The notes under the pieces were generated by a model. The model searched no databases, was not told where the DNA came from, and was given only the letters and a program-made list of their open reading frames with translations. A stretch of 64,000 bases of DNA from Thermococcus profundus (GTDB lineage: Archaea; Methanobacteriota_B; Thermococci; Thermococcales; Thermococcaceae): contig NZ_CP014862.1 of assembly GCF_002214585.1 (NCBI RefSeq), positions 992,001 through 1,056,000 of the forward strand, in the 5' to 3' direction. Below are positions 7,626 to 37,176 of this stretch, in pieces; the stretch's first letter is position 1, and every line of letters starts with the position of its first letter. The position numbers and the translations under genes are program-made.

Positions 7626-7693
7626 TTTATCACCACTTTAGGTTTCCAAAAAACCTATAAATCCCTTTTCATCTACCTCCACTTTGACTGGCT

Positions 7694-11692: not shown

Positions 11693-14131
11693 ATGAAGCT
11701 AAAGGTGTTTTTAAGGCACTACTTAAAGTCGTTTTCATTCTTTGCCATCCTGGTGCTCCTTGTTTCTGTTTTTCCTGCAGTGATCGTGGCCACGCTAGAG
11801 ATCGCTGGAAACCCCAGTCACGAAGGCTTCTCCAATACATACCTGGTAATGGAGCTTGAGAGGGGTCTCAGCAGCGGGAAAATAGAATACCTGAGATCAA
11901 ACGACCGCTTAATTTTCAACCCAAACTTTGTTGAAGTCTACCTGGGAAATAGAACTGACGAACTCCGACTTGGCGACGTTGAGAGAATAGTCGAGGAAGC
12001 GGGGCTCAAACCCGAGATCTACTATCCAGCATTCGTCGACGGGAGGCATGTCCTTCTGGTTCCCCTCGACGGCCCAATTGGAGAAGCCGACTGCTACACT
12101 TCACCAAACAAAAGAATCACAAAAGGCACCATCCCATATTCACCGTGGATAACCACGAAAAAGGGATACACAAGGAATCCACTCTACAACATTACGATAG
12201 AGTGTGCACTCCCCTTAAACACTTCCAGTGAAAAAGCCCGCGTTCTCTCATCCCTCCTTGACTATTCGCAATATGAAGAGTGGTGCATCTCCTCGGGAAA
12301 ACTCTTGAGCAGGTTTTTGAACTACACTGAAACCGATCAGAACCTCAAGAATGTCGGCGCTGGGGAGTGGATTTTCGTTATTCTCCCTGGAAAAGTTGAT
12401 GTTAACGCATTTTACGACCTCATCCTTCCCAAATTCAGAGAACATAACGTAAGTCCGTCTCTGTACGTCATCACCCCCGAATGGGTAAAGGCAACGGAAA
12501 GTCAAAAAACGCCTGTGAGCCATATCCTGGAGTACCTAATCTTGCTCCTCCCAGTCACTCCCGCGATATTGATCCTGTTCAAGCAGGAACAGGCAAACGA
12601 GCTGAAAATGAGGGAGGTCATGGGGGTAAATGGAGGGAGTGACTTCGTAGTCGATGTCTTAACAGCGGGCATAGTTCTGCTGGGAGCAGGGACATCATTC
12701 CTATTGCTGGATAGAGCGATGGGATTGGCAACCGCTTTTATTGTGCTGGTTCTCTTTTCTCTGAGGGTGTTCCTAACAGGCAAGGAAATAACTCAGTGGA
12801 GGGAGATACTTGTCTTCATCTCCCTGTTGGGTGTCCTCGGAATAGCCTCCTACTTCAACATGGCGCTGAGGATCAAGGCAACTAACGTCCTCACTCTGGG
12901 ACTCCCCCTATTTGACATTAACAAACGGGAATCGCTGTGGATATCTCTCTTCAGATACGGGCCCCTTGCTCTAATGGGGATTGGAGGGGTGTCAATACTT
13001 CCCCTGCTGATTGAAATCAAAGGGAGCATAGGGCAGAGGGGAATTACACGGACAATAGTGCCCAGCGTCCTTCCCCTAGTACTGCTTTTTCTTTATACCG
13101 GCTTCATACTGTCCACACCCCTCACCTCAATAGTGAGTGGAATTGACATGACCGTAGGTGCTACAGGCATCGTGGGATTCAAATACACTCCAAGCAGATT
13201 CAACCAAACAAATGAAGCCTATGACGCTGTAACGGCGGTCCTAGAGGCGAGAGAAACACCCTATACAACAATATGGAACGCTGGAAGTGTTGTCAGAGTG
13301 GACAGTGAACAGTTTATTGAGGGGCGGGGAAACCTGCCCTGCTACAAGGAGGATTTTTTGGAGTTTTTAAGAAATTCGGCACGAAGGAGTTCCTTGGCAG
13401 GAAAGCTCTATTCCCTGCTCTCGTCAAACAGAGGAAAACTCATAACAACGGAGGATCAGCTGAACTTGAAGTTCCAAGGCTTCAAAAAGGAGAAAGGTCT
13501 TCTCGCCTTTGGGCTTTCAACGGAAAACGGCATGGTCCGTACATTTTCGATACCATATAAAGTAGTCGACCTTCCCAGTGACGTTGGCTTTGCAGACACA
13601 TTTGTGGAGTGCTCTGTATTTGGCAAGGGGGATGAATCCCAAAGATTGTACCCGCAGTACATCCTGTTCTATGGGGATATGGATACGATCAAGGCTGTCA
13701 ACTTAACAGCCTCCGAATATAAAGACGTAATCGGCGAGTTTGCCTCGGTTAGAACGACCAGTGGAACTATCATTCAAGAGTATTCAAAAATAAGCGGTAC
13801 ACTCCCCATGCTGCTCTCAGCAATCCTTATGATTTTAACTTCCGCTGTAGTCGGAGCCAGGGACGCAGAGAGGGCTGCTGTTGTACACTGCCTAACAGAG
13901 ATAAACGGTGGGGATATTAAAGAGCTATTCCTTCCACTACTCCTTCTACTCCCACCGCTCTTCCTGCCATTCACCATTTTCAGAGATGCCTACGAAGTGT
14001 ACTCCATGGGCTTTCTCCCGGATGCAAAACTCCTGTGGTATCTAACGCTTCCAATGATTGGTTTCACAGCAGGAATCCTAATTTACAGCGCGGTGTTTGG
14101 GGCAAGGATTAAGCGGGGGTGTGAATTTTGA
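11693..14131 (+). CDS. Large FtsX/MacB-like ABC transporter permease (putative)
   Basis: 812 residues. One membrane helix near residues 17-37 is followed by an extracytoplasmic domain of about 230 residues, then a bundle of helices (about 280-470), a second extracytoplasmic domain (about 480-690) and a C-terminal group of three to four helices. This two-half layout with the partner ATPase gene overlapping its stop suits an FtsX-type exporter or surface-acting mechanotransmitter, not an importer. A family cannot be named more precisely from sequence. ATG follows GGGGAGA. Only the ATPase gene next to it shows a frameshift; this frame is intact. Confidence 0.6.
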   Translation: MKLKVFLRHYLKSFSFFAILVLLVSVFPAVIVATLEIAGNPSHEGFSNTYLVMELERGLSSGKIEYLRSNDRLIFNPNFVEVYLGNRTDELRLGDVERIVEEAGLKPEIYYPAFVDGRHVLLVPLDGPIGEADCYTSPNKRITKGTIPYSPWITTKKGYTRNPLYNITIECALPLNTSSEKARVLSSLLDYSQYEEWCISSGKLLSRFLNYTETDQNLKNVGAGEWIFVILPGKVDVNAFYDLILPKFREHNVSPSLYVITPEWVKATESQKTPVSHILEYLILLLPVTPAILILFKQEQANELKMREVMGVNGGSDFVVDVLTAGIVLLGAGTSFLLLDRAMGLATAFIVLVLFSLRVFLTGKEITQWREILVFISLLGVLGIASYFNMALRIKATNVLTLGLPLFDINKRESLWISLFRYGPLALMGIGGVSILPLLIEIKGSIGQRGITRTIVPSVLPLVLLFLYTGFILSTPLTSIVSGIDMTVGATGIVGFKYTPSRFNQTNEAYDAVTAVLEARETPYTTIWNAGSVVRVDSEQFIEGRGNLPCYKEDFLEFLRNSARRSSLAGKLYSLLSSNRGKLITTEDQLNLKFQGFKKEKGLLAFGLSTENGMVRTFSIPYKVVDLPSDVGFADTFVECSVFGKGDESQRLYPQYILFYGDMDTIKAVNLTASEYKDVIGEFASVRTTSGTIIQEYSKISGTLPMLLSAILMILTSAVVGARDAERAAVVHCLTEINGGDIKELFLPLLLLLPPLFLPFTIFRDAYEVYSMGFLPDAKLLWYLTLPMIGFTAGILIYSAVFGARIKRGCEF

Positions 14132-22655: not shown

Positions 22656-22752
22656 CTTCCCACACCGGGGAAAATGAACTTTTAGGCTTATCAAAGTTTC
22701 CGGAACCAAAGGTTTAATAGCCCTTTTCTCAGACCTCTTTAAGGTGGAAGAT

Positions 22753-23466
22753 ATGTACGGATGGCGCGGAAGGCTCGGCCTTATAGTTCCCTCCTCAAAC
22801 ACAACGATGGAGATGGAGCTTCACGGTTACCTCCCCGAGGGGGTTTCCCTTCACACATCGCGGATGCCCCTGAGGAACGTTACGGAGGAGGAGCTCGTTA
22901 AGATGGGCTCACTGGCCGTTGAGAGCGCGAAGCTCCTGCGCGATGCAGGCGTTGAGCTCATACTCTACGGCTGCACGAGCGGTTCATTCATCGGCGGAAA
23001 GGACTATGAGAAAGAGATCGAGGCAAAGATAGAGGATGAAGTCAAAATACCCGTTATAAGCACGAGCACGGCGGTGATAGAGGCGCTAAAAATCCTCGAT
23101 GCACAGTCGATACTCGTGGTAACCCCCTACACCGACGAGATCAACCAGCGGGAGAAGGAGTTCCTCGAGGCCAACGAGTTCGAAGTTCTGGACATCAGGG
23201 GGCTCGGCATAGAGGACAACCTGAAGATAGGTCGGCTGGAGCCATACGAGGCCTATCGCCTCGCGAAGGCAAGCTTCATGGACGAGGCGGATGCTATATT
23301 CATCAGCTGCACCAATTGGAGAACCTTTGAAATAATCGAGGCCCTTGAGGAAGACCTTGGTGTTCCGGTCGTTACTAGCAATCAGGCCTCACTCTGGCTC
23401 GCCCTCAGGGAAATGGACGTTATGGAGAAGATTCCGGAGCTGGGCAGGCTGTTCGTGGAGTATTAA
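22753..23466 (+). CDS. Maleate cis-trans isomerase/arylmalonate decarboxylase family protein
   Basis: 237 residues. It has the two-domain Asp/Glu racemase-like fold with catalytic Cys candidates in LYGCTSGSF and ISCTNWRTFEII, and the N-terminal GLIVPSSNTTMEMEL characteristic of this family. Members isomerise maleate or decarboxylate malonates; the actual substrate is unknown. ATG 22753 is 5 bases after AAGGTGG; the in-frame GTG at 22744 lies within that site. It ends 55 bp before the edge of the protease/anchored-protein array. Confidence 0.85.
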   Translation: MYGWRGRLGLIVPSSNTTMEMELHGYLPEGVSLHTSRMPLRNVTEEELVKMGSLAVESAKLLRDAGVELILYGCTSGSFIGGKDYEKEIEAKIEDEVKIPVISTSTAVIEALKILDAQSILVVTPYTDEINQREKEFLEANEFEVLDIRGLGIEDNLKIGRLEPYEAYRLAKASFMDEADAIFISCTNWRTFEIIEALEEDLGVPVVTSNQASLWLALREMDVMEKIPELGRLFVEY

Positions 23467-23520: not shown

Positions 23521-23712
23521 TCACAAATTGTAAGTTGCAAACTGCCAGAGATTATCCTCGTGATAAACCACTATCAAACCCTCCTCCTTTGGAATTCCAG
23601 CGAGCTTGTATGCTCCTTCTGCTGTTGAGAGCTCGTGATAAGTGTAAGCGTTGTACGCGAAAAAAGAAAAGAGAATGAAAATTATTAAGATAGCTAGGGA
23701 ATGCTTTATCAC
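23521..23712 (-). pseudogene. Truncated type B anchored protein
   Basis: 63 residues, almost identical to the first 61 residues of the complete type B protein at 29277-30197: the membrane anchor, the AYTYHELSTAEGAYKLAG segment and NLWQFATYN. It then stops after two unrelated residues. The extracytoplasmic domain is missing, so it is the terminal remnant of the array. The remaining product would be a membrane peptide only. Confidence 0.85.
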
Positions 23713-23727
23713 TGTATCACCTTCTCC

Positions 23728-24702
23728 CTAATTACAGTGATAGCCGTTTATGTAATCAAACTTTCTTCTGTCTATTCTTCCTGGAGGGTATATTCTCAGC
23801 TCGGCGTGAATATTATCGTTCTTGTCTATCCATCTTATCCACGCGTACACTGTTCCAGCGTCTTTGAAAATGCGAAATCTTGCTCTAGAGTTTCTTCCAA
23901 TAGCTTTCTGAAGTTGGGGTGAGTTGAGTTTCTGAAGGATCTGCCTTATCGAGACTTCTTTTAAATCCCACGTGGTGTTTTTTGAACAGTGCCCAGCCAG
24001 TGTGTCTGAGAGCGTGATGTTCCCAGGATAGTGAATCATTCTTTTAATAGTCCCATTGTCCGCGGGCAGGAACTCCACGACAACACCCCTTGTGAAATTT
24101 AACATGGGGCTCGGTAGGTAAAGCAACCCTTTACCATAATAAGCATCGTCTGTGGGGAACATTTTGTCCCCATAGACATCTACAATTGTTCCAGTAGTAA
24201 TCTCTGAATCTTTGAGAATGGCGATTTGAGTGTAAGTGACATTTTCCTTGCCCTTGATTACTTCTTCAATCGACGGGTAAATGCTCTCAATCTCCTCATC
24301 CCTGTAAATCTTGTCCTTGTAGAGGAGTTCTCTGCAGTTATTGCAGTTTTTGACGTCATTCAACTTTTCTGGGCTCGTTGCTAGGAGTGAGTAGTTAAAG
24401 GGAGTCTTGCAGGTTATCTTACTTTTCTTCATTCTCGGCCAGATCTTCAAGAATTTGTACGTCTTGAAAGTGTAAATGCTGAGGGCCTTGCTATCTGGGG
24501 CATACAAAGCGAACTGGTACTCTCTAAAGCCATTAAAACCAGTTTGAGAGTAATAGTAAGCCGCTATTAATTGAGAGTTTTCCCTAACTTGAGCTGGAAT
24601 CTCCTGGTAAAGGTCGTTCATACGCTCTGAGGGGAGGTAGAAATAACTGAAAAGCAGGAGGAAAAATAAAAGGAAGCTAAGGGCTACTACACCTTTCCTC
24701 AT
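23728..24702 (-). CDS. Type A anchored extracytoplasmic protein, copy A5
   Basis: 324 residues. N-terminal positively charged MRKG then a hydrophobic helix (about 5-24) with no lipobox, so a single-pass N-in anchor. The soluble domain has the type A conserved block (YQFALY, KKSKITCKTPFNYS, CNNCRELLYKDKIYRDEEI) and ends in a cysteine-containing YHCN. Four conserved cysteines (ITC, CNNC, terminal C) suggest two disulfides outside the cell. Start set at 24702 by alignment to the other type A starts; ATG 24708 is also in frame. No match to a known family is recognised. Confidence 0.8.
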   Translation of the reverse strand: MRKGVVALSFLLFFLLLFSYFYLPSERMNDLYQEIPAQVRENSQLIAAYYYSQTGFNGFREYQFALYAPDSKALSIYTFKTYKFLKIWPRMKKSKITCKTPFNYSLLATSPEKLNDVKNCNNCRELLYKDKIYRDEEIESIYPSIEEVIKGKENVTYTQIAILKDSEITTGTIVDVYGDKMFPTDDAYYGKGLLYLPSPMLNFTRGVVVEFLPADNGTIKRMIHYPGNITLSDTLAGHCSKNTTWDLKEVSIRQILQKLNSPQLQKAIGRNSRARFRIFKDAGTVYAWIRWIDKNDNIHAELRIYPPGRIDRRKFDYINGYHCN

Positions 24703-24730
24703 CCCCATATCACCCTTACCACATGCCCTT

Positions 24731-25642
24731 TTACTCGGTTATGTTTGCTGGGATGTCCGTGCCCTCCATCGTGGAGTATGCAGGTGGGAGCTGCTCTTTC
24801 ATGGATATGCCCTTCCAGTATCTGGTGAGGGCTATAAAGCCGGCATGAGCCCCCGAACCGTCAGGGTTTGCATAGTACATCAAACTAATAAAGGCTGTTT
24901 GTGTTCCCTCAAGGTATTTAAGAGCACCAAGCCCAGTGCTCACGGTTTTGTCTGTAAAGCGGAAAGGTCTTAAGTCAGTTGCCTTCCCGCGCCCTGTAAT
25001 CCTGATATTGCCGGGATAAAGGGCCTCATACGTGGAGATCTCGTTGTTGACAGCGACTTCGGCATACCATACAAATTTTTTCCCTGGGTTTTCCTCCAAA
25101 CTTGGAATTGCCAGTACTTTCCCAGAGCCAACTGAACCGTGAACTGCATCTCCCCCTACGAGCCTTATTCCCCCGACCCATAATTCTCTCCCAGCCCAGC
25201 AGGCAGTAAGGCTCCTCAATGGTTTATCCCAAAATTCCCTGTTCACATCCTCCGCTCTTGGGAATTTTAGTGGGTTTTCTCTTGTGTACCATTTTCCGTT
25301 GAAGAGGAGTGCTGGGGTCTCTTCTGGGGCTTTTTCGAGGAGTTTTAAATCGAGTGCGAGGGGCGAGTAGTTCAGGGGTGTTTCAACGCTTTTAACATCG
25401 TTCCCCCATGGCAAAATTGGGTTCTCTGAGTAGATGGCGTAAACTTTCAGCTTCCTAGTTTCTGGATTGTATGTAGCGAACTGCCAGAAGCTCGTATCAT
25501 GATACACGGCAATGAGTTGCTCGTTCTCTGCAATCCTCGCCATTTTGTAAGCCCTAACTGCCGGAGGAAGAGAGTTAAGATAAGCTAAGTACCCGATGAA
25601 AAGAAGGAAAAGAATAAAAGCAGCGAAGAGCTTTCTCTTCAT
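24731..25642 (-). CDS. Type B-like anchored extracytoplasmic protein
   Basis: 303 residues. Hydrophobic anchor at about 5-22, then LIAVYHDTSFWQFATYNPET, TPLNYSPLALD, ALLFNGKWY, AIPSLEENPG and ALYPGNI, matching the superfamily motifs. It lacks the four cysteines of type A. ATG ending at 25642 follows GGGGGATAA. It lies between A4 and A5. The function is unknown; position suggests the same role as the other B-type members. Confidence 0.75.
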   Translation of the reverse strand: MKRKLFAAFILFLLFIGYLAYLNSLPPAVRAYKMARIAENEQLIAVYHDTSFWQFATYNPETRKLKVYAIYSENPILPWGNDVKSVETPLNYSPLALDLKLLEKAPEETPALLFNGKWYTRENPLKFPRAEDVNREFWDKPLRSLTACWAGRELWVGGIRLVGGDAVHGSVGSGKVLAIPSLEENPGKKFVWYAEVAVNNEISTYEALYPGNIRITGRGKATDLRPFRFTDKTVSTGLGALKYLEGTQTAFISLMYYANPDGSGAHAGFIALTRYWKGISMKEQLPPAYSTMEGTDIPANITE

Positions 25643-25706
25643 CTTAGGTTATCCCCCTTTTTCTGGTTGTTGTTTTGATTCTAGAGGTTTTCTGACTCTC
25701 CTCTTC

Positions 25707-26660
25707 TCAGTTGATTGAACAGTGAGTTATGTAAACCCTCCTGAAGTGTATTCTCCTGAGAGGAATGGGGTCTTTTCCAATTTTCAAGTAAGCGTAGGTG
25801 CGTTCTTCCGGGATTATCCATTCAATCCACGCTGTGTCAGGATCCCATATAGAAACTTTGAACCTCCACGCTTTCTCTGAGTACTCTCCAAACTCTTTGA
25901 TCCCCCTTATAATATCCTGAAGCTTGGGGTTTTCAGCCGTCCATAGTGTACTGCTATTGACATCTTGTTGATAAATGGAATGGAGCGTTACATTCTCGGG
26001 ATAATGTATGGCCACTCTGGGTCTATCGTCCAAATAAATGGTTATCCATGTGGCTTTCTCAACGTCTTTTCCCTGGCTGGGCAGGATAAGTGCTCCGGGG
26101 TATCCTTCAAAGCCTATGTCTCGAATAGTATCGCCCGAATACATGCTAACTGCCCCAATGGAAATTTCCTGGCTTTTTATTCCAGTAACCTTCCAGTAAT
26201 TTAAGTCAGGTCTCAGAAGTTCATCTAATCTTGGCTGAAGGTTTTCAATCTCCTCGTTCCTGTAAATCTTATCTTTATAGAGGAGTTGTCTGCAGTTGTC
26301 GCAGTTTGTGAAGTCTTTCAGCTTTTCTGGGCTCGTTGCTAGGAGTGAGTAGTTAAAGGGAGTCTTGCAAGTTATCTTGCTTTTCTTCATTCTTGGCCAG
26401 ATCTTCAAGAATTTGTAAGTCTCGAAAGTGTAAATACTGAGGGTCTTGCTTTCTGGATTGTAAAAAGCGAACTGATACTCTCTGAACCCGTTAAAACCTG
26501 TTTGGGAGTAGTAGTAAGCGGCAACAAGCTGGGAATTTTGCCGGACTTGTTCTGGAATCTCCTGGTAGAGATCGCTTATGCTCTTTGAAGGGAGGTAGAA
26601 ATAACTGAAAAGTAGGAGGAAAAATAAAAGGAAGCTAAGGGCTGCTACGCCTTTCCTCAT
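25707..26660 (-). CDS. Type A anchored extracytoplasmic protein, copy A4
   Basis: 317 residues. Nearly identical to the other A copies over the first 150 residues (anchor, SQLVAAYYYSQTGFNGFREY, KKSKITCKTPFNYS, CDNCRQLLYKDKIYR) but diverged afterwards, with a shorter LPSQGKDVEKATW block and IHYPENVTL. The ATG overlaps the stop of the displaced protease module by four bases (ATGA), so it is translationally coupled to that module exactly as A1 is to the full-length protease. Confidence 0.82.
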   Translation of the reverse strand: MRKGVAALSFLLFFLLLFSYFYLPSKSISDLYQEIPEQVRQNSQLVAAYYYSQTGFNGFREYQFAFYNPESKTLSIYTFETYKFLKIWPRMKKSKITCKTPFNYSLLATSPEKLKDFTNCDNCRQLLYKDKIYRNEEIENLQPRLDELLRPDLNYWKVTGIKSQEISIGAVSMYSGDTIRDIGFEGYPGALILPSQGKDVEKATWITIYLDDRPRVAIHYPENVTLHSIYQQDVNSSTLWTAENPKLQDIIRGIKEFGEYSEKAWRFKVSIWDPDTAWIEWIIPEERTYAYLKIGKDPIPLRRIHFRRVYITHCSIN

Positions 26661-27271
26661 CCCCAGATCACCTCCATGAAGTAGCCGACTCCGGTATACG
26701 GCCCTGTCTTGGGTGTGAAGTTTTCGTCAATCCTGAGATTAATATTGAGTAACGGTCTTCCCTTCATGTAATCCAGTTTTGATAGCCAAGGTGGCTCATT
26801 TGAGCCCGTAAGAATTGTGTATAAGGTTTCCCAAGCGGAACAGTGCCAAATCTGTTTGTCGTTCTTTTCGTCATATATATCCACAGAGGGATCTCCCCAT
26901 TGATTCGTAGTGTATGGCTTCCAGTCACCGTATTCATTTGTTAAGTATTGGTGGAATTCTTCGTAATCTTTTGGCGTGCTCAGCTCGCTCCAGGACCATT
27001 CGTGCTTCATGACTGAAGGCGGGGCGGCATCGTAAACTGGATGCGGTGCTACTAGAATCGCGGCGAGGGGATTGATTAGGGCGGCATATTGGTAGACGTC
27101 AAAGTATGGCTCGTGCCAGTAATAAGACCTTTGATTCCAGTCCTCGTACTCGTCCCCAAGCCAGAATACGTAGTGCCCGAGTTCGTGGGCGAGCGTTCTG
27201 CCCCAGCGCACGTCCCCAATACTGGTAGTACCTGTGGGAGGCGTGTACTCCTCGAACTTCTTAGACCTCAT
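26657..27271 (-). CDS. Displaced C-terminal metalloprotease module (orphan)
   Basis: 204 residues, equal to residues 609-798 of the full-length protease, including HELGH (29-33) and LGDEY. It lacks signal peptide, CARDB-like and calcium-binding parts and the first half of the protease domain. Its own ATG at 27271 is preceded by GGAGGT, the same bases that encode Gly-Gly in the long protein. The segment after the zinc site (about 45-85) is unlike that of the long protease, while the last 60 residues are nearly identical. Possibly a silent donor for recombination, or a free cytosolic fragment. Confidence 0.8.
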   Translation of the reverse strand: MRSKKFEEYTPPTGTTSIGDVRWGRTLAHELGHYVFWLGDEYEDWNQRSYYWHEPYFDVYQYAALINPLAAILVAPHPVYDAAPPSVMKHEWSWSELSTPKDYEEFHQYLTNEYGDWKPYTTNQWGDPSVDIYDEKNDKQIWHCSAWETLYTILTGSNEPPWLSKLDYMKGRPLLNINLRIDENFTPKTGPYTGVGYFMEVIWG

Positions 27272-27299
27272 GGCGTTACCTCCCACTCAAAATGAGATT

Positions 27300-28154
27300 C
27301 TATCTTCTCCAGCACGGTTTTCCATAGTCATGTCTTTTCACGCTTCCATTGCTGTAAATTGTGATTTGGGAAACCATTCTGCATTCTCCCAGTTCATCAA
27401 CAATGTTCCAAGGATCGGGGTTAAGGACGACTTCCCCGTTCATCACGAGGATCCCCCAAGCTGAGTCAAAGTACTGGGAAACATTGGTTGGAAGGTTTGT
27501 GCGCTCAATCTGAGGCAAGTTGAGCCTTGGAGCATAGCCGTAGACAGTGCCGATTGGATACTCTATCTCAATAAGGTCATGAGTACCGTTGTGCGGCAGA
27601 ATTTTCAATACGAATGATGATGCACACTTGCCTTTCGATGGAAATACGAGATATCCTCCAGTGACGTTAGTGTGCCCCAGCCTTACGAGCTCCCAGCCAT
27701 CCCCCAGGGCAGCCTTGCACTCTGGACAGAGGGTTATGAATTCCCGACAGGGGATAGATTTTAGAGCTCCTTCAAAAATTCTTATTGTGTCGTTGGACTT
27801 TACTAATAGTTCCTCTTTAACACTCTTGAGGTTCCCAACTCTTTTTGCTTCAAATGAGAGGGGCGAATAGTCAGCGTACGTTTTAACGCTTTTTTCGTGA
27901 TGCTCCACTTTTGGGATTATGTTCCCCTTCAGCTTGAGGACGTGAAGTGTTAGGGTTCCATTCTGATATGTTGCTATCCTCCACTCGTTCTCGTGATGTT
28001 GCATGAGAATTATCCCCTCATTAATTCCCGCATTATTTAGAACACATGAAGGCGTATTGAAGCAAGTGGTAGCTTCATGTCGTTCCCATAATACTAATGA
28101 AGATGCCAGTAAAAGGAAAAAGACGAGAGAAAGTGCGAGGAGTGTTTTCCTCAT
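27300..28154 (-). CDS. B-like anchored extracytoplasmic protein (divergent, D)
   Basis: 284 residues. Anchor at about 5-21, then EWRIATYQNGTLTLHVL, YADYSPLSFEA, YLVFPSKGKC and IEYPIGTVYG, the superfamily pattern in diverged form, plus six or more cysteines not shared with other members. The ATG at 28154 overlaps the stop of a protease remnant by four bases; a longer open frame to 28238 would translate that remnant region and is not favoured. The next gene downstream is the orphan protease module, 28 bp away. Confidence 0.75.
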   Translation of the reverse strand: MRKTLLALSLVFFLLLASSLVLWERHEATTCFNTPSCVLNNAGINEGIILMQHHENEWRIATYQNGTLTLHVLKLKGNIIPKVEHHEKSVKTYADYSPLSFEAKRVGNLKSVKEELLVKSNDTIRIFEGALKSIPCREFITLCPECKAALGDGWELVRLGHTNVTGGYLVFPSKGKCASSFVLKILPHNGTHDLIEIEYPIGTVYGYAPRLNLPQIERTNLPTNVSQYFDSAWGILVMNGEVVLNPDPWNIVDELGECRMVSQITIYSNGSVKRHDYGKPCWRR

Positions 28155-28189
28155 CCCCAGACCACCTCCATGAAGTAGCCGACGCTGAT
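28151..28189 (-). pseudogene. Remnant of the metalloprotease C-terminus
   Basis: Minus-strand translation gives ISVGYFMEVVWG and a stop, matching the last 12 residues of the protease (GVGYFMEVTWG). It directly precedes gene D with the same ATGA stop/start overlap. Only about 13 codons are recognisable, so it is a recombination or deletion scar. Confidence 0.75.
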
Positions 28190-28269
28190 ATGTGTCAATC
28201 TGCACCTCTGGAGCATACCATTCTCTGAGGTTGCACACTTCTTTATGGTAGTGCGGGTCTTGCCGTTCC

Positions 28270-29265
28270 TCATCCGCACCGGTACTCCCTTATGAATTTA
28301 GAGTTTCTCCAGTAAACCTTACCTGCCGGATATACTCTCCATTCACTGTAAATTCCCTTTCCCACGTCAGTCCAAGTAACCCACGCTTCTAACCGCTCGG
28401 TACCCCATTTGGAAATCTCGAACCTGAACCTAGTGGGAGTGCCGATCGTTTTCCTGACTTTTTGAGAGTTCAAAACCTGAGTGAGATTGGCAAGAACTTC
28501 TCTTTTGAGCGTCCATGTGGTATTATCTGAAACTGGAATCCTGTAATACTCTGACAAGCGGATTGTATCGTTCAAGATGACGTTCTCTGGATAGTGGATT
28601 ATGCGCTTCACCGTCTCGTTGTTCAGGGGCAGGAACTCAACTATGATTCCCCTTGTGAGATTCTTCATTGAACTGGGCAGGTAGAGAAGCCCGTGAGCGT
28701 GCCATACGTAGTCTGTGGAGAACATTTTGTCACCTGATGCAAGCACCATTGCTCCAGTTGAGAGTTCCGAGGATTTGACAAGGGAGAGCTTAACGTACCT
28801 TGTACTCCTGTTGCTTCCAACTATCTGCTCAAGAGACGGGTAAATGCTCTCAATCTCCTCATCCCTGTAAACCTTACCCTTGTAGAGGAATTCTCTGCAG
28901 TTATCGCAGTCCTTGAAGTCCTTCAACTTTTCTGGGCTCGTTGCGAGGATGGAATAATCGAGGGGAGTCTTGCAAGTTATCTTGCTTTTCTTCATTCTTG
29001 GCCAGATTTTCAGGAGTTTGTAAGTCTTGAAAGTGTAAACGCTGAGGGTCTTGTTTTCTGGATTGTAAAGAGCGAACTGGTACTCTCTGAACCCGTTAAA
29101 ACCAGTTTGGGAGTGATAGTAAGCGGCAACAAGTTGCGAGTTTCTCCTAACTTGCTCCGGAATCTTCTGGTAGAGATCACTCATGCTCTTTGAAGGGAGG
29201 TAGAAATAACTGAAAAGCAGGAGGAAAAGTAAAAGGAAGCTGAGGACTGTTAAAGCTCTCTTCAT
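28270..29265 (-). CDS. Type A anchored extracytoplasmic protein, copy A3
   Basis: 331 residues. Anchor (about 5-22), SQLVAAYYHSQTGFNGFREYQFALYNPE, KKSKITCKTPLDYS, CDNCREFLYKGKVYRDEEIE, LYLPSSMKNLTRG, IIHYPENVIL and the terminal YRCG. Four conserved cysteines present. The ATG ending at 29265 has GAGGTGAC nearby; the start context differs a little from other A copies. It is the last gene before the protease remnant. Confidence 0.82.
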   Translation of the reverse strand: MKRALTVLSFLLLFLLLFSYFYLPSKSMSDLYQKIPEQVRRNSQLVAAYYHSQTGFNGFREYQFALYNPENKTLSVYTFKTYKLLKIWPRMKKSKITCKTPLDYSILATSPEKLKDFKDCDNCREFLYKGKVYRDEEIESIYPSLEQIVGSNRSTRYVKLSLVKSSELSTGAMVLASGDKMFSTDYVWHAHGLLYLPSSMKNLTRGIIVEFLPLNNETVKRIIHYPENVILNDTIRLSEYYRIPVSDNTTWTLKREVLANLTQVLNSQKVRKTIGTPTRFRFEISKWGTERLEAWVTWTDVGKGIYSEWRVYPAGKVYWRNSKFIREYRCG

Positions 29266-29276
29266 CCAAGGTCACC

Positions 29277-30197
29277 TCATCTGAGTTCAATATTTGAAAT
29301 GCACCCTAAGTCTGTAATGTTGGTGGGGTTGGTACTTTTGGCCTCTACTTGGCAATATCCGCCGTTTAGTGATCTTCCAAAGGCGTAGTACCCAGGAACC
29401 CGCTTTAGAGTCTCGTAGAAGATTAGCTGAACATACTTAGGATTCTTTGTCTCAAGTTTTTTGATTATTTCTTTGGCCATTTTCTGGTCGACGTCCCGGT
29501 ATGTAAAAGCAATTCCTCCTTTCGCCAAACCCCTAAGGATTACTCCAGGATAGTATGCGAGTACCTCAGAACTATTCTGATTCCCAGGCTTTTCCTTTAC
29601 CCACAGGAGTTTTGTGTCCTTGTAGGAGGGGAAGACGAGTACGCCGTTCACTCCAATACTCCCATACCCCACGGTATCCCCAGCGAATCTACTGTCCCTC
29701 CTAAGGACTTCTTTTGACCTTATCCACATCTCTTTACTTGTTCCGAGCGCGTAAATCTGGTAAAACGTTTCATTCGGCTTAATGACTTCACTGAGATTCC
29801 ACCAGTACGAGCCATCAATCTCATCATCGTACTTCCATCCGATGGTCTTGAAGAGTAATGCCCTCTCGTGGGGCGTGTAATCCTTCAAAACTTCCAAGTC
29901 CAGTATTACTGAAGAGTAATTCACAAGGGTTTTCGAGCTTTCAACTCTCCTGCTCTTCAACCAGAAGGGGGTTGACTGGCTAACAGTGTAAAGCTTGAGC
30001 ATGTTAGTCTTCTCGTTATATGTCGCGAACTGCCAGAGATTGTTCTCGTGATAGACTGCTATTAAGCCCTCCTCTTTTGGTATTCCAGCGAGCTTGTAGG
30101 CTCCTTCTGCCGTTGAGAGCTCGTGATAGGTGTAAGCGTTATACGCGAAGAAGGAAAAGAGGAGGACAAAGAGTATTCCGAGGGAGAGTTTCTTCAT
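29277..30197 (-). CDS. Type B anchored extracytoplasmic protein
   Basis: 306 residues. Anchor LSLGILFVLLFSFFAYNA, then YHELSTAEGAYKLAG, LIAVYHENNLWQFATYN, NYSSVILDLEVL, ALLFKTIGWKY, GVLVFPSYKDT and AYYPGVIL. It is the complete parent form of the truncated gene at 23521-23712. The ATG follows GGAGGGGG. It sits between A2 and A3. Confidence 0.8.
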   Translation of the reverse strand: MKKLSLGILFVLLFSFFAYNAYTYHELSTAEGAYKLAGIPKEEGLIAVYHENNLWQFATYNEKTNMLKLYTVSQSTPFWLKSRRVESSKTLVNYSSVILDLEVLKDYTPHERALLFKTIGWKYDDEIDGSYWWNLSEVIKPNETFYQIYALGTSKEMWIRSKEVLRRDSRFAGDTVGYGSIGVNGVLVFPSYKDTKLLWVKEKPGNQNSSEVLAYYPGVILRGLAKGGIAFTYRDVDQKMAKEIIKKLETKNPKYVQLIFYETLKRVPGYYAFGRSLNGGYCQVEAKSTNPTNITDLGCISNIELR

Positions 30198-30215
30198 TTT
30201 TGAGTCCCCCTCCAG

Positions 30216-31220
30216 TTAGGGTAGTTTCTCCCGTATGTCGCTCCCATACCAAGTGCACACGTACCCGCCGAATTTCCTGAACCCTGCGCGCTTGATTTTT
30301 CCTTGGGGGTATATTCTCCAAATCCCCTCAACGCCTTTCCTGGGATTCACCCAGGTTGTCCACGCTTCAATTCTTCCATCCTCTCTCGTGATCGAGAACT
30401 CAAAGCGGATGGAGCCTTCAATATTACTCACGAGTTCCTCCGACTTCAATTTTTGAACAATATCCTTCAAGGAAACTTCCTCCAGCGTCCACGTTTTATT
30501 ACTTGGAGCTTTGACTTTCGCCGTTGTTGAGAGTGTAACATTGCCCGGATAATGAGCGACCACCCTAATCGTACCGTTCTCTCCAGCGATGAACTCCAGT
30601 ATTACACCCCTCCACGGAGCACCCATAGAAGAAGGCAAGTGAAGCAAACCCCCATAACCCAAGGGGCCTCGTAGTATTCCTTTATCTCCTACCCATTCTA
30701 CTATTTTGCCCGTTGAGATTTCTTCGTCCTTGGTGAGTACAAGGTTTACGTAAGTAGTGTTCTCCTTGCCTTTGATGACTTCATTAATTGACGGGTAAAT
30801 GCTCTCGATCTCCCCATCCCTGTAAATCTTACCTTTATAGAGGAATTCCCTGCAATTGTTGCAATTTTTGAAGTTTTTGAGTTCTTCTGGAGTAGTTGCA
30901 AGGATTGAGTAGTTGAAAGAAGCCTCACAACCTACTACGTCATCCCTCATAGCTGGAATAAATTTGAGAAGCTTTACTATTTTGAAAGTGTAGACCCTAA
31001 TTTTCCGCGCTTCCGGATCGTACAAAGCGAACTGGTACTCTCTGAATCCACTAAAACCGGTTTGAGAGGAATAATAAGCGGCAACAAGTTGCGAGTTTCT
31101 CCTAACTTGCTCCGGAATCTTCTGGTAGAGATCACTCATGCTCTTTGAAGGGAGGTAGAAATAACTGAAAAGTAAGAGGAAAAGTAAAAGGAAGCTGAAG
31201 GCTGCTATACCTTTCCTCAT
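30216..31220 (-). CDS. Type A anchored extracytoplasmic protein, copy A2
   Basis: 334 residues. Conserved A-type front end, but with CEASFNYSILATTPEELKNF and FIPAMRDDVVGC in place of the KKSKITC block, and a diverged rear half (LLHLPSSMGAPWRG, AHYPGNVTLS). The C-terminus extends past the conserved cysteine (YVCTWYGSDIREKLP). The start context GGTGATCTGGGGATGAGG is shared with A1, A4, C and D. Confidence 0.82.
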   Translation of the reverse strand: MRKGIAAFSFLLLFLLLFSYFYLPSKSMSDLYQKIPEQVRRNSQLVAAYYSSQTGFSGFREYQFALYDPEARKIRVYTFKIVKLLKFIPAMRDDVVGCEASFNYSILATTPEELKNFKNCNNCREFLYKGKIYRDGEIESIYPSINEVIKGKENTTYVNLVLTKDEEISTGKIVEWVGDKGILRGPLGYGGLLHLPSSMGAPWRGVILEFIAGENGTIRVVAHYPGNVTLSTTAKVKAPSNKTWTLEEVSLKDIVQKLKSEELVSNIEGSIRFEFSITREDGRIEAWTTWVNPRKGVEGIWRIYPQGKIKRAGFRKFGGYVCTWYGSDIREKLP

Positions 31221-31243
31221 CCCCAGATCACCTCTAAATAACC

Positions 31244-32227
31244 CTATCCGAGTTTTCCTGATCTTTCATCGCCACAACACCCATTGCATTTGAGGGTTAC
31301 AGCGATCCATATTGCCTCATTACTGCATTTTCTAGAGGCTCCATCCACAGGCCTGCCAATGAAAAGGGCCATTCTTCCCGATCTATCCCATTCCATGTTT
31401 TGCTCCCACGCTTTACGAATTCCTTCTGAATCTTCAACTTCAGATGTACAGTTTGAAAACCTCTGCATGCTCCCTTCCAAGTTCTTCTTGCCTTCTTTGC
31501 TGCAGATTGCCATCCCAAGTCTGCCCCCAAAGAGGAAAAGGCTACATTCAGGGGCTGTTCTCGTGCTCAGGTTCAAAACTGTCCCGTCAAAGAAGGTTAG
31601 GAGTGTCTCTGAGTTGTTGTTCTTTCTCGTAATCACTGCGGAGACAGTCGGTGAACCAGTCCCAGTAACGTCTGGTGGGACTAAAATACTTCCAGGTCCT
31701 GCTGAAGGATATCCAAAATCTGAATTACAGACTCTAATTTTATCGAATCCCATCCAGAAGTCGTCTTTCGAGTAGAATAGGCCAATTATTGTGGCATTAG
31801 TCCCCGATATGCTTTGGAAGACAGCAGTCTGATTGGTATTTGGCTTGTAGTGCCATTTTCCATTGAAGAGAAGCGCTGGAGTATCCCCATTCCACCTCTT
31901 GATCAATTTTGGGTCAATGGTGAGGAGTGAGTAATCGTATTGGGTAGTATAAACCTTGAGCTTCTTCGTGAGCCTGGGTATTATGCTAATTTTCTCGCTC
32001 AGGGAAACTATCGCGACTTCTTGGGTTTGAGGGTTGTATAACACCAGTTCCCATTTTGGTCCGAGTGTTCCTTTTTTCACGTAGGATCCGATGAGGGCTT
32101 CATTTCCGTTTTCCTTTGAAAGCTGGAGCATTTTCTCCGGATTTGTGAGGGTCTGGTGAACCTGGTATGCCTTAAGGCTCCAAACGGCCAGGAACAAAAT
32201 GAAGAGGAAAGAGATAAGTTTCCTCAT
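31244..32227 (-). CDS. B-like anchored extracytoplasmic protein (divergent, C)
   Basis: 327 residues. Anchor at about 4-20, then EALIGSYVKKGTLGPKWELVLYNPQT, TQYDYSLLTIDPKLI, ALLFNGKWHYK, SILVPPDVTGTG and LTFFDGTVLNL, matching the superfamily pattern. The C-terminal third is cysteine-rich (about eight cysteines, ending LKCNGCCGDE), unlike the others. The start context is GGTGATCTGGGGATGAGG, though the gene follows A1, not a protease. Confidence 0.75.
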   Translation of the reverse strand: MRKLISFLFILFLAVWSLKAYQVHQTLTNPEKMLQLSKENGNEALIGSYVKKGTLGPKWELVLYNPQTQEVAIVSLSEKISIIPRLTKKLKVYTTQYDYSLLTIDPKLIKRWNGDTPALLFNGKWHYKPNTNQTAVFQSISGTNATIIGLFYSKDDFWMGFDKIRVCNSDFGYPSAGPGSILVPPDVTGTGSPTVSAVITRKNNNSETLLTFFDGTVLNLSTRTAPECSLFLFGGRLGMAICSKEGKKNLEGSMQRFSNCTSEVEDSEGIRKAWEQNMEWDRSGRMALFIGRPVDGASRKCSNEAIWIAVTLKCNGCCGDERSGKLG

Positions 32228-32242
32228 CCCCAGATCACCCTG

Positions 32243-33256
32243 TTAGCTACAGCGGTAACCGAGGAGGGACTTAAATCTTCTTTCGCGGGTTAGTTCGGTG
32301 GGATAAACTTTCAACCCTCCATAAATTCTGTTCTTTCTGTCTATCCATATTATCCAAGCTTCAAGTCTCGGTGTCTCCCCCCATAATGGTTCTTTTGATA
32401 TTTCAAATCTAACCCTTGAGTCTTCCTCGATGACCTTTTGAAGCTGTTTAGAGTCGAGCTTTTGGAGAATTTGTCTTATTAGAACTTCCTTTAAAGTCCA
32501 AGTCAAGTTCTGCGTGATATTAACACGGTAGTACTCCGTAATTTTGAACTCGTCTGAGAGTGTGATGTTCCCAGGATAGTGAATCACTCGCTTGATGGTC
32601 TCGTTGTCCACGGGCAAGAACTCTATAACAACACCCCTTGTGAAATTTAACATGGGGCTCGGCAAGTAGAGCAATCCCCTCCCATGCCAAATGTAATCCG
32701 TGTAAAAAATTATGTCCCCAGTTGAAGATGACAGCTCCATTGCTCCCGTGCTTATTTCCGAGTCTTTGAGGAGGGAGAGCTTCACGTAAGTGGCATTTTC
32801 CTTGCCCTTGATTACTTCTTCAATTGACGGGTAAATGTTCTCGATCTCCTCATCCCTGTAAATCTTGCCGTTATAGAGGAACTCTCTGCAGTTATCGCAG
32901 TTTTTGAAATCCTTCAACTTTTCTGGACTTGTTGATAAGAGGGAATAGTTAAAAGGAGTCTTGCAAGTGATTTTGTTTTTCTTCATCCTCGGCCAGATCT
33001 TCAAGAATTTATACGTCTTGAAAGTGTAAACGCTGATGGTCTTGTTTTCTGGATCGTACAAAGCGAACTGGTACTCTCTGAACCCGTTTAAACCAGTTTG
33101 AGAGGAATAATAAGCGGCAAGAAGTTGAGAATTTTGCCTGACTTGTTCTGGAATCTTTTGATAAAGGTCGTTCATACGCTCTGAGGGGAGGTAGAAATAA
33201 CTGAAAAGCAAGAAAAAGAGTAAAAGAACGCTGAGGATTACTAGGCCTTTCCTCAT
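32243..33256 (-). CDS. Type A anchored extracytoplasmic protein, copy A1
   Basis: 337 residues. Conserved type A front (anchor, YQFALYDPENK, KKNKITCKTPFNYS, CDNCREFLYNGKIYRDEEIE), LYLPSPMLNFTRG, IHYPGNITLSD, terminal YRCS. It overlaps the stop of the full-length protease by four bases (ATGA), so its synthesis is coupled to that of the protease. By position it is the cognate partner of the protease: an inhibitor, immunity protein or substrate. That role is inferred from arrangement only. Confidence 0.82.
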   Translation of the reverse strand: MRKGLVILSVLLLFFLLFSYFYLPSERMNDLYQKIPEQVRQNSQLLAAYYSSQTGLNGFREYQFALYDPENKTISVYTFKTYKFLKIWPRMKKNKITCKTPFNYSLLSTSPEKLKDFKNCDNCREFLYNGKIYRDEEIENIYPSIEEVIKGKENATYVKLSLLKDSEISTGAMELSSSTGDIIFYTDYIWHGRGLLYLPSPMLNFTRGVVIEFLPVDNETIKRVIHYPGNITLSDEFKITEYYRVNITQNLTWTLKEVLIRQILQKLDSKQLQKVIEEDSRVRFEISKEPLWGETPRLEAWIIWIDRKNRIYGGLKVYPTELTRERRFKSLLGYRCS

Positions 33257-35649
33257 CCCCAGGTCACCTCCATAAAGTAACCGACTCCGGTATATGGCCC
33301 CGTTTTGGGTGTGAAGTTTTCGTCAATTCTGAGATTAATATTGAGTAGCGGTCTTTCCTTCATGTAATCCAGTTTTGATAGCCATGGGGGCTCATTTGAT
33401 CCCGTGAGAATTGTGTATAAGGTTTCCCATGCAGAGCGAGTCCATTGTTCGATTATCTGTTGAGTTTGGGGATCCATATCACCTGCCCACTGGTACGTAG
33501 TGTATGGCTTCCAGTCACCGTACTTGTCTGTCAGGAATTGGTGGAATTCCTCGTAATCCTTGGGAGTGCTCAGCTCGCTCCAGGACCATTCGTGCTTCAT
33601 AACCGAGTCAGGAGCAGCGTAGTACACATCCCTATCGAAATAGCATGCAAAATCATCGCACGTTATATAATTCCAATAGTAAGAGTTCCCCCGCCAATCC
33701 ATGTACTCGTCTCCAAGCCAGAATACGTAGTGGCCGAGCTCGTGGGCGAGCGTTCTGCCCCAGCGCACGTCCCCAATACTGGCAGTGCCGGTAGGCGGCG
33801 TATACCGCTCAAACTTTTTGGACATCATAATATGACCTCCCCTCCAGTATCCTCCAGGGTCTGCCCTTGGCCATCCCTGATAGAGAAATTCCCCTTCAGT
33901 CTGTGGGAGAACTCCAGTCTCGTGCACCCTCACGTCTGCATCATTCCAGTGCCTCTTGTTGTCCCATATCTGCACGCTGGTTATCATCGCGTACCCGTCG
34001 GTGTAGTCGTAAACAAAATCGCTCGCCTTCCTGATGCTGTAAATCAGATTTTTCTTGTCCCCCTCGCTCAGGGGCCACTCTGTAGAAACCTTGAGACTAA
34101 TCCCTAGAATGTCCCTCTTCGCCGGGTCTTTTCCAATCATCAGCTCGACGATGTTTGGAACCCCATCGCCGTCGTAGTCTCCGTAGGAGTCGTTATCGTT
34201 GCTTTCATCGCGCAGGGAATCGTCGTTGAGGTAGTACCCGTCGGTGGGATCGAACCTCCAGGGAAGCCCCGCCGCTTCGAGCTCCTCGTTCAGCTCGACC
34301 TCGCGCCAGTAGGGGATCCCATCGCCCTCGCCGCCGGAACCCAGAACAGTTACCACGAACCAGATCTCCCCGTCTGGGGCTCCATCCGAGGAGTACGTGA
34401 CGACCTGCCCTTTGATCTTGGTCTTCTTCCCTCCAAGGGAGAGGACAACGTCCCCCTGGGGCGAACCGGGAGACATTGCGCTGAGGAGCCGGCTCACCCT
34501 CGCACCGTGCGTGTTCACCAGGGTGAAGTTCTTGAGCTTCCCATTGGGCAGTTCAACGGTCACCAGTTCCACACTCCTAGGCCTGGAGACCTGTACCCAT
34601 CCCCTCTTGGAGGGGCCTCTTACCTCCTTCACTCCCTCAGGGGAGACAGCGCTGATGACTTTCCCGTTGATCCCGTTTTTCTTTAGAATGTTCTCATACT
34701 TGGAGTACACTTTCACGTCTTTGCCCGGGTCATGTGCCGAAATACCACATGAGCCGTCGCCGCATCCGCTGAGGTGACCGTAGCCGTAGTACTGTTTCTC
34801 ATCGCCTGGATAATCATCGCCGCTCCAGGTTCCCGTTCTGAGATTGTAGTGTATCGTAGCTGCGTTTCCTGGGCCGGGGGATATATCAATGGGATCGTCT
34901 GGGTCGTCGTCCCTATCACGGAGCTGGAACGTTATATCCACGATCTCGGCACTATCCGGAACGTCGAATACAGCTTCTCCTACTGCATAGTTTTGCAAGT
35001 TGCCTAGGATGTCAATTCCTGGCACGATTTTGCCAGTATAAGACTCGGTGTCTTTGGTGTCGCTTTTGAAGTTCAGCGTTTTTGATGAATCCCAATCCCC
35101 TGACCTCGCGGTTATATCGACGCTCATGTCAGGATCAGAATGCAGGATTGGATCGGGAACTGCATCGATCGCCTTTGCGCGTAGAACGTAAACCATGATC
35201 CGAGCGTCTCCAAAGGGATCCATGTCTTCGAGATCCATGATACCATCGCAGTCAGCGTCCAGCTCTAAAGTGGCGGTTTGGGTTTTTGAACTAATGCCTC
35301 CGGGATAGACTATCTCAGCTTTAAACGAATGCTGGCCGGAGAACACTCTCAGGGAAACTTCCTCCACAGTGGGGGTGTATGGATGCACCTCGAATCCACC
35401 GCTGTATTTTTCTATTCCATCCACGTATATCTTTAGCGTCCCTACTGCAGTTGTTCCTCCATAGTTGTTCAGGCTTACCCCAATCCTGACGTATCCCCAG
35501 CAGGCCACAGGCTGAATGTCCATTCCGGTTATCACTGGCTCAGGAGCAGGTGCGCCGGAGGCTATATTCTGGCCAATGAAAGTCCCTGTCCCTACCACCA
35601 GTATCAGGAGGGACAGAACAAGGCCGAGTGTTTCTTTTATTCTCCTCAT
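33253..35649 (-). CDS. Secreted multidomain zinc metalloprotease
   Basis: 798 residues. Signal peptide about 1-33; CARDB/APHP-like beta domain about 38-128; calcium-binding DxDxDG repeats at 131-145 and 487-508 (TSP3-like); an unassigned central part; zincin domain about 515-660 with HELGH at 636-640 followed by LGDEY (645-649), an arrangement reminiscent of the CLCA HExxH...FDEY protease domain; unassigned C-terminal region to 798. Exported and probably calcium-stabilised. No transmembrane helix at the C-terminus. ATG preceded by GAGGTGC. It heads the array and its stop overlaps A1. The substrate is unknown. Confidence 0.85.
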   Translation of the reverse strand: MRRIKETLGLVLSLLILVVGTGTFIGQNIASGAPAPEPVITGMDIQPVACWGYVRIGVSLNNYGGTTAVGTLKIYVDGIEKYSGGFEVHPYTPTVEEVSLRVFSGQHSFKAEIVYPGGISSKTQTATLELDADCDGIMDLEDMDPFGDARIMVYVLRAKAIDAVPDPILHSDPDMSVDITARSGDWDSSKTLNFKSDTKDTESYTGKIVPGIDILGNLQNYAVGEAVFDVPDSAEIVDITFQLRDRDDDPDDPIDISPGPGNAATIHYNLRTGTWSGDDYPGDEKQYYGYGHLSGCGDGSCGISAHDPGKDVKVYSKYENILKKNGINGKVISAVSPEGVKEVRGPSKRGWVQVSRPRSVELVTVELPNGKLKNFTLVNTHGARVSRLLSAMSPGSPQGDVVLSLGGKKTKIKGQVVTYSSDGAPDGEIWFVVTVLGSGGEGDGIPYWREVELNEELEAAGLPWRFDPTDGYYLNDDSLRDESNDNDSYGDYDGDGVPNIVELMIGKDPAKRDILGISLKVSTEWPLSEGDKKNLIYSIRKASDFVYDYTDGYAMITSVQIWDNKRHWNDADVRVHETGVLPQTEGEFLYQGWPRADPGGYWRGGHIMMSKKFERYTPPTGTASIGDVRWGRTLAHELGHYVFWLGDEYMDWRGNSYYWNYITCDDFACYFDRDVYYAAPDSVMKHEWSWSELSTPKDYEEFHQFLTDKYGDWKPYTTYQWAGDMDPQTQQIIEQWTRSAWETLYTILTGSNEPPWLSKLDYMKERPLLNINLRIDENFTPKTGPYTGVGYFMEVTWG

Positions 35650-35707: not shown

Positions 35708-35790
35708 CTGAAAACTTGATATAACAGGATAATAAAGGCCCCGAAACCCTTTTAAGATCCTCAGACTGTTAGTCACTGAGGGTGATACAT

Positions 35791-37176
35791 ATGGTCACGG
35801 GGATCCTTGAGAAGGCCAGGGAGCTTTCGGTGTTCACAGCGTACAACACGAACGTTGATGCGATCGTTTATCTCAACGGTGAGATCGTCCAGAGGCTCAT
35901 AGACGAGTTCGGTGCGGAAGCTGTAAGGCGGAGGATTGAAGAGTACCCAAGGCAGATAAACGAGCCCCTTGATTTCGTGGCCAGGCTTGTTCACGCCCTC
36001 AAGACAGGGAAGCCGATGGCAGTTCCTCTCGTTAATGAGGAGCTCCACTCCTGGTTCGATTCTCACTTCACCTACGATGTTGAGAGGATGGGCGGTCAGG
36101 CTGGGATAATAGCGAACCTCCTCGCCAACCTCGACTTCAGGAAGGTTATCGTCTACACCCCTCATCTGGCGAGAAAGCAGGCTATGATGTTCGTTCCAAA
36201 GAGAAACCTCTTCTATCCCCTCGTCGAGGATGGAAAACTCGTTCTCAAGCATCCCCACGAGGCCTACCGCGAGAACGACCCGATAAAGGTCAACAGGATT
36301 TTTGAGTTCCGCGCTGGAACGACCTTCAAGCTGGGGGAGGAAAGAATAACCGTCCCCTTCTCGGGCAGGTTCATAGTTTCCGCTCGCTTTGAGAGCATAA
36401 GGATCTACACTGAACCTGAGCTGAAGCCGTTTCTCCCAGAGATCGGACTGATGAGCGACGGAGCAATCCTATCGGGCTATCAAGGGATAAAGCTCCGCTA
36501 CTCCGATGGCAAGGACGCGAACCACTACCTCCGCGAGGCCAAGAAGGACATCCTCCTCCTCAAGCGGGAGAAGGACCTGAAGGTTCACCTTGAGTTTGCC
36601 TCCATCCAGAACCGCGAGCTGAGAAAGAAGGTGATCTACAATCTCTTCCCGCTCGTCGACAGCGTTGGGATGGACGAGGCAGAGATAGCCTACGTCCTCA
36701 ATGCCCTAGGCTACTCCAAACTCGCCGACAGGATATTCACCTACAACCGCATCGAGGACACGGTTCTCGGTGGAAAGATACTCATAGACGAGATGAACCT
36801 CGAGCTTCTCCAGATCCACACGATCTACTACATCATGTACATCGCCCATTCCGACAACCCACTGAGCGAGGAAGAGCTCAGGCAAAGCCTCGAACTGGCC
36901 ACAACCCTGGCGGCGGCTAGGGCCTCCCTCGGGGAGGTAACCTCACCGGAGGACTTCAAAGTCGGCCTCAACGTCCCTTACAACGAGCGCGGCGAATACG
37001 TCAAGCTCCGCTTTGAGGAGGCAAAGAGAAGGTTGAGAACCAAGGAGTACAAGGTCGTCATAATCCCAACCCGGCTCGTGGAAAACCCCGTCTCAACCGT
37101 CGGCCTCGGTGACACTATCTCAGCAGGGGCCTTTACGAGCTATCTCGCAATGCTGAAGGAGAAGGGCGAGCTCTGA
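35791..37176 (+). CDS. pfkC: ADP-dependent phosphofructokinase
   Basis: 461 residues. It closely follows the Thermococcales ADP-PFK sequence: FTAYNTNVDAIVYLN, NEPLDFVARLVHALKTGKPM, GGQAGIIANLLANLD, SDGAILSGYQGIKLRYSDGK, and the catalytic GLGDTISAGAF near the C-terminus. It phosphorylates fructose 6-phosphate with ADP in the modified Embden-Meyerhof pathway; ADP-glucokinase has a different N-terminal region. ATG 35791 follows GGGTGATA; GTG 35782 is in frame but unlikely. TATA-like CTTTTAAG at about 35748. The Thermococcales glycolytic motif (inverted TATCAAC) was not seen upstream. Confidence 0.93.
   Translation: MVTGILEKARELSVFTAYNTNVDAIVYLNGEIVQRLIDEFGAEAVRRRIEEYPRQINEPLDFVARLVHALKTGKPMAVPLVNEELHSWFDSHFTYDVERMGGQAGIIANLLANLDFRKVIVYTPHLARKQAMMFVPKRNLFYPLVEDGKLVLKHPHEAYRENDPIKVNRIFEFRAGTTFKLGEERITVPFSGRFIVSARFESIRIYTEPELKPFLPEIGLMSDGAILSGYQGIKLRYSDGKDANHYLREAKKDILLLKREKDLKVHLEFASIQNRELRKKVIYNLFPLVDSVGMDEAEIAYVLNALGYSKLADRIFTYNRIEDTVLGGKILIDEMNLELLQIHTIYYIMYIAHSDNPLSEEELRQSLELATTLAAARASLGEVTSPEDFKVGLNVPYNERGEYVKLRFEEAKRRLRTKEYKVVIIPTRLVENPVSTVGLGDTISAGAFTSYLAMLKEKGEL

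Follow-up and report, generated by a model that had tools for sequence, protein, structure and literature searches.

Bacterial polymorphic toxins combine a conserved N-terminal part with a variable C-terminal effector and an adjacent small gene, and feature standalone tip cassettes, poly-immunity arrays and tip recombination (PMC3482391), all of which have counterparts in the Thermococcus locus described here. Whereas nearly all immunity proteins of the bacterial systems are cytoplasmic (Zhang et al. 2012, PMC3482391), the effector of the archaeal locus is predicted to be extracellular and its partners membrane-anchored and outward-facing. Moreover, classical tips belong to unrelated folds, whereas the archaeal tips represent a single catalytic fold with variable loops, and no RHS, HINT or similar domain was seen in the system. 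Because of this shared tip fold, we describe the locus as working like a polymorphic toxin rather than file it as a member of the class.

Within the same archaeal order, the Thermococcales, the hypervariable Ig module VARTIG, whose first gene corresponds to arCOG07710, has likewise been compared to polymorphic toxins by its authors (PMC8416519). Common to both systems are a long, exported first gene product with a variable C-terminus and smaller membrane proteins encoded downstream; however, the variable part of VARTIG is an Ig domain and no toxin has been recognised in it, whereas the C-terminal part of the protein described here is an intact zinc protease lacking the hypervariable Ig domain, with one tail paired to one partner. 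The protease also shares the motif HExxHxxxxxxDEY with the CLCA_N and M64 (IgA protease) metallopeptidases, for which it is given as the active-site motif in a CLCA survey that includes Thermococcus sp. AM4 as the archaeal CLCA_N case (PMC3650047). The domain context is different, and, as far as the survey's account of these peptidases extends, no partner system is described for them (PMC3650047).

An archaeal secreted protease that is reported to confer antagonistic activity on its host is halolysin R4 of Haloferax mediterranei, as cited in PMC12893001. In contrast to the metalloprotease considered here, it is a serine protease and belongs to the haloarchaea. We know of no hypervariable tip or partner array for halolysin R4. 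A literature search returned no paper joining Thermococcus, metalloprotease and polymorphic toxin, and an earlier mention in the archaeal survey of Makarova et al. (2019, mBio) is possible.

Architecture of the island and its proteins

The window, by which we mean the whole 64,000-nucleotide stretch of DNA analysed here, derives from a 2.04 Mb Thermococcus genome and harbors at 23521-35649 a locus whose genes all lie on the minus strand in the window's open reading frame listing. The initial annotation had described one protease, a single superfamily represented by nine complete genes and a truncated one, a displaced protease tip and a protease scar, and this anatomy is borne out by the coordinates below. 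Read along the minus strand, the protease (P) is followed by A1-B1-A2-B2-A3-scar-C-orphan tip-A4-B3-A5-truncated B, where the complete genes comprise five type A, three type B and one type C copies of a superfamily that we term S. The features of the island and its borders, with the type C start taken as 28154, are:

35782..37176, plus strand: right border, conserved gene
33253..35649, minus strand: P, predicted secreted multidomain zinc protease of 798 aa, assigned from the open reading frame, invariant tip residues and weak M64 similarity
32243..33256, minus strand: A1, S-superfamily partner, ATGA overlap with P
31244..32227, minus strand: B1, S superfamily, with the protease-tail-like stretch GGTGATCTGGGGATGA kept upstream
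30216..31220, minus strand: A2, S superfamily, with the same short protease-tail-like stretch upstream as B1
29277..30197, minus strand: B2, S superfamily
28270..29265, minus strand: A3, S superfamily
about 28151..28186, minus strand: protease scar read from the sequence, frame SVGYFMEVVWG followed by a stop, ATGA overlap with C
27300..28154, minus strand: C, 284 aa, assigned to the S superfamily by profile search
26657..27271, minus strand: orphan catalytic tip of P, 204 aa from its ATG, HELGHYVFWLGDEY intact, without a signal peptide
25707..26660, minus strand: A4, S superfamily, ATGA overlap with the orphan tip
24731..25642, minus strand: B3, S superfamily
23728..24708, minus strand: A5, S superfamily
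23521..23712, minus strand: truncated B, 63 aa, island end
22744..23466, plus strand: left border, EutA/arylmalonate decarboxylase-like gene, next to its right-hand counterpart in 45 genomes

The ATGA stop/start overlap that had been reported for each protease 3' end is indeed present at all three such junctions in the window, namely P/A1, orphan tip/A4 and scar/C.

The protease begins with a signal-like segment, has no visible anchor and ends in a catalytic tip that covers about residues 606-798. In the window protein, the tip presents HELGHYVFWLGDEY at positions 636-649, a methionine at 684 and the conserved tail GPYTGVGYFMEVTWG. The 25 catalytic 3' ends compared across the genus all share a single HExxH motif and can be aligned over a common core. 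Residues H636, E637, H640, Y649, M684, E692, W721 and W741 are invariant, D647 and E648, and with them the complete DEY of the CLCA_N/M64 motif, occur in 24 of the 25, and the GPYTGVGY block (784-791) is mostly invariant. Mean normalised similarity is 0.84 for the tail, 0.55 for the core and 0.38 for the body, and it drops to 0.17 in each of two hypervariable loops, spanning DEY to Met and W721 to GPYTG, respectively. One variant (L085:3375-7346) reads HELGHLVFGFGEDY where the others have DEY, which perhaps alters its zinc binding.

Similarity of the protease to characterised families is weak: the Peptidase_M64 profile matches 3 of 20 members below its curated cut-off (best E 0.0075), a profile search of the PDB yields a weak match at E 0.058, and a PDB sequence search with P alone gave none. 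Pfam, NCBIfam and PADLOC searches of P and S returned nothing above cut-off. The structure model of the tip is poor (pLDDT 44), and the top matches of its fold search, several matrix metalloproteases among them, are non-significant. A scan of named genomes recovered 11 loci, mostly from Thermococcus MAGs. Long protease forms of 1216-1322 aa with a lamin-tail-like domain near the N-terminus occur at two loci (L067 and L082), and distant HExxH relatives are found in an Anaerolineales MAG and a Deltaproteobacteria MAG (L105/L108), with the layout of L108 being CLCA-like plus VWA.

The partners form two unrelated families. Within S, profile searches show homology between types A and B (the A profile matches B proteins at E about 1e-4 to 1e-12, the B profile matches A at about 1e-17), and type C joins them at E 4e-9. 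S proteins are predicted to consist of an N-terminal membrane helix, with membrane segments assigned from hydropathy and the structure model only, and a confidently modelled all-beta outer part (pLDDT 83), for which a fold search of the PDB returned nothing similar (best E 0.004, TM-scores <0.2). Type A copies are mosaic: identity between them is 68-85% over the first 142 alignment columns and 24-59% over the rest. The second family, T, features a signal peptide and a CGP-CTERM anchor at its end; at one locus an intact T gene adjoins a protease split into several frames (L086 in G017, 6365-8847). That two unrelated families alike expose a domain on the outside of the membrane suggests protection against something acting there. 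In another species, a type C gene near-identical to that of the window (L071:11400-12254; 631 of 688 bits) is followed by a homologous orphan tip at 12264-12908 and then by a partner type unlike the window's.

The two border genes, the right one of which resembles an ADP-dependent sugar kinase, lie side by side in 45 genomes (hand count from coordinates), with about 70-115 bp between them; several of these empty sites were also viewed as sequence. The gap between them holds an island of 12.3 kb in the window, 14.8 kb in genome G007 and 11.6 kb in G020; in three more genomes it is filled and interrupted by contig breaks, and in G008 it retains a 619 bp remnant that includes a protease tail, the ATGA and the start of a truncated B. 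Protease loci outside this gap occupy a small number of recurrent sites elsewhere. Neither an integrase nor a tRNA was noticed, and homologous recombination via shared flanks would be a sufficient, if unproven, cause. Two further genomes carry about 1 kb of unrelated DNA in the same gap (L153 in G050, L155 in G053), indicating that the site accepts other cargo too.

Distribution and pairing of tips and partners in Thermococcus

The protease is encoded in 19 of 61 Thermococcus genomes, about a third, and a search of 115 genomes across the phylum added two more genera of the family; a search of a plasmid collection gave no match. S is present in 18/61 genomes of the genus and full T-like matches in about 16/61, with weaker T matches reflecting the shared CGP-CTERM tail only. 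At least one of the two partner families accompanies the protease in 19/19 genomes, compared with 3-4 of the 42 genomes without it (Fisher test with 4/42, P = 3e-12). The initial annotation had reasoned that an immunity role would fail if partner arrays occurred with no protease, or if the protease were invariant and widespread without partners. Arrays of the former kind are rare: in G007 and G020 they lie mostly behind a protease-tail scar and the protease is found elsewhere in the genome, whereas the protease-free genomes hold remnants, such as a scar with truncated B in G008 and a broken T in G026, or, in G019, where no protease was detected, an intact B-type S gene together with T at another recurrent site (L091, 5700-7315). 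A weak partial T is present in protease-free G014. By its gene layout, the G019 locus appears to be an immunity-only one, as does L077. An invariant protease without partners was not encountered, as a membrane-anchored partner lies immediately 3' of 25/25 HExxH-bearing 3' ends, and tip and partner co-vary. Both outcomes favour a reading of the locus in terms of toxin and immunity.

A wider tail scan covered 52 comparative loci and the window and identified 63 protease tails, of which 28 retain an intact motif and 35 lack one; scars like the window's recur genus-wide. A partner start, S or T, directly follows 61/63 tails, which exceeds coincidence, and where the partner is S the spacing is exactly -3, the ATGA overlap, in 32 of 38 cases. 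The tail type is also linked to the partner family: tails of the GYF type precede 29 S and no T genes, those of the GYY type 7 S and 20 T genes (P = 1e-9). Orphan tips occur in six loci, namely the window (26657-27271), L071, L072, L081, L095 and L160, and partner arrays comprise up to a dozen partner genes with one protease (L076). Such arrays, together with the G019 and L077 loci, correspond to poly-immunity arrays and immunity-only loci in layout only.

Across 17 non-redundant pairs, which are not phylogenetically independent, partner distance correlates with tip distance (Mantel r = 0.77, P = 1e-4) and continues to do so with the body held constant (r = 0.72), whereas the correlation with body distance (r = 0.39) falls to a partial r of -0.05 given the tip. 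Similarly, the tip match is 0.69 to the first downstream gene versus 0.44 to the second. The comparison across Thermococcus that had been called for, in search of swapping of the protease 3' half with its neighbour, reveals their joint change in several cases. The G025 and G005 proteases share a body similarity of 0.82, yet their last tip segments stand at 0.06 and their partners at 0.03 (T versus S), with corresponding values of 0.79, 0.10 and 0.03 for G031 and G012. The G013 protease resembles the window protease up to W721 (0.85, 0.59, 0.81), beyond which similarity is 0.23 to the window protein and 0.59 to that of G002, and the partner changes from type A to type B; it is a recombinant of window-like and G002-like parts. 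Between species, tip and partner are swapped jointly on a conserved body.

Two cases do not fit the pattern: the last segment of the L071 orphan tip is B-like, yet a different S type adjoins it, and L073 and L076 diverge in their last tip segments (0.27) although their partners are nearly the same (0.78). Covariation with the variable C-half of the partner, considered as a sign of contact, was dropped (r = 0.08, non-significant, probably owing to saturation). The best predictor of the partner is the protease segment nearest to its gene, which means that chromosomal linkage contributes and could explain part of the covariation. Were the protease and its downstream genes simply inherited as one block, without cognate interaction, a correlation that peaks for the parts nearest on the chromosome would follow; but two unrelated anchored families occupy the same position, orphan tips with partners are found inside arrays, and the partner tracks the tip rather than the body about 1 kb away, and we consider inheritance by linkage alone very improbable.

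A proposed competition system acting at the cell surface

We propose, at a probability of roughly 60%, that the locus encodes a polymorphic-toxin-like competition system with an extracellular metalloprotease as effector and surface-anchored proteins as immunity partners. A fixed body with exchanged tips (body similarity up to 0.82, last segment 0.06), a partner gene behind the tip (61/63), standalone tips, scars, arrays and partner-only remnants are the traces expected of a polymorphic toxin with immunity genes. In the proposed mechanism, the protease would be exported, and its C-terminal zinc protease, in which hypervariable loops would ring the invariant site HExGHxxFxxxDEY, a Met-turn-like M and the final GPYTGVGY, would probably target proteins in the surface layer or membrane of related cells. 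The gene starting within its stop codon would yield a membrane-anchored, surface-exposed protein, S or T, that binds and blocks the matching tip, thus protecting the producer and its kin. New tip-plus-partner cassettes would displace old ones through recombination in conserved flanks, and the displaced tips would decay into scars while their partner genes are retained as accumulated immunity against other strains. We put at about even odds the more specific idea that hypervariable loops around a fixed zinc site confer specificity, that each loop set has its own surface-anchored inhibitor, that these inhibitors belong to two or more unrelated families, and that their arrays record past rival protease types. 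The toxin/immunity architecture put forward initially therefore stands in its genus-wide recurrence, pairing and co-swapping, and needs amending in that all tips share one catalytic fold and the partners, given T, are not confined to one superfamily.

The partners could instead serve in maturation or anchoring, holding, activating or retaining their own protease for peptide feeding, with arrays generated by duplication via the repeated junction sequence. Thermococcus does feed on peptides (PMC8416519), the partners are anchored at the surface and change along with the tip, and the gene overlap suggests coupled translation; however, up to a dozen partner genes per protease, their persistence behind scars after protease loss and the immunity-only layout in G019 are at odds with such a role, and the patchy presence of the system (19/61) is a poor fit to housekeeping feeding, which makes this reading unlikely. 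Less probable still is that the protease and its partners are variable cell-surface proteins reshuffled for virus escape or self-marking, as proposed for VARTIG. Such a function would accommodate the hypervariable content within fixed chromosomal slots, the modular C-terminal swapping as in VARTIG (PMC8416519) and the constant N-half and variable C-half of type A. Against it stand the partner found for each tail, a protease without a visible anchor, and the near-universal retention of the zinc site among the tips (H, E, H in 25/25; DEY in 24/25), which argues that catalysis is under selection.

To our knowledge, conflict systems of hyperthermophilic archaea have been predicted and hardly tested. 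A protease tip and its neighbour gene provide a compact, repeated and testable pair, for which the genetically tractable Thermococcus kodakarensis is a possible clean host. If the competition model is correct, the locus would represent a system of the polymorphic-toxin kind built on a protease that works outside the cell, its partners would constitute two new inhibitor families for zinc proteases active at high temperature, and the system would explain large unannotated surface-protein islands in Thermococcus.
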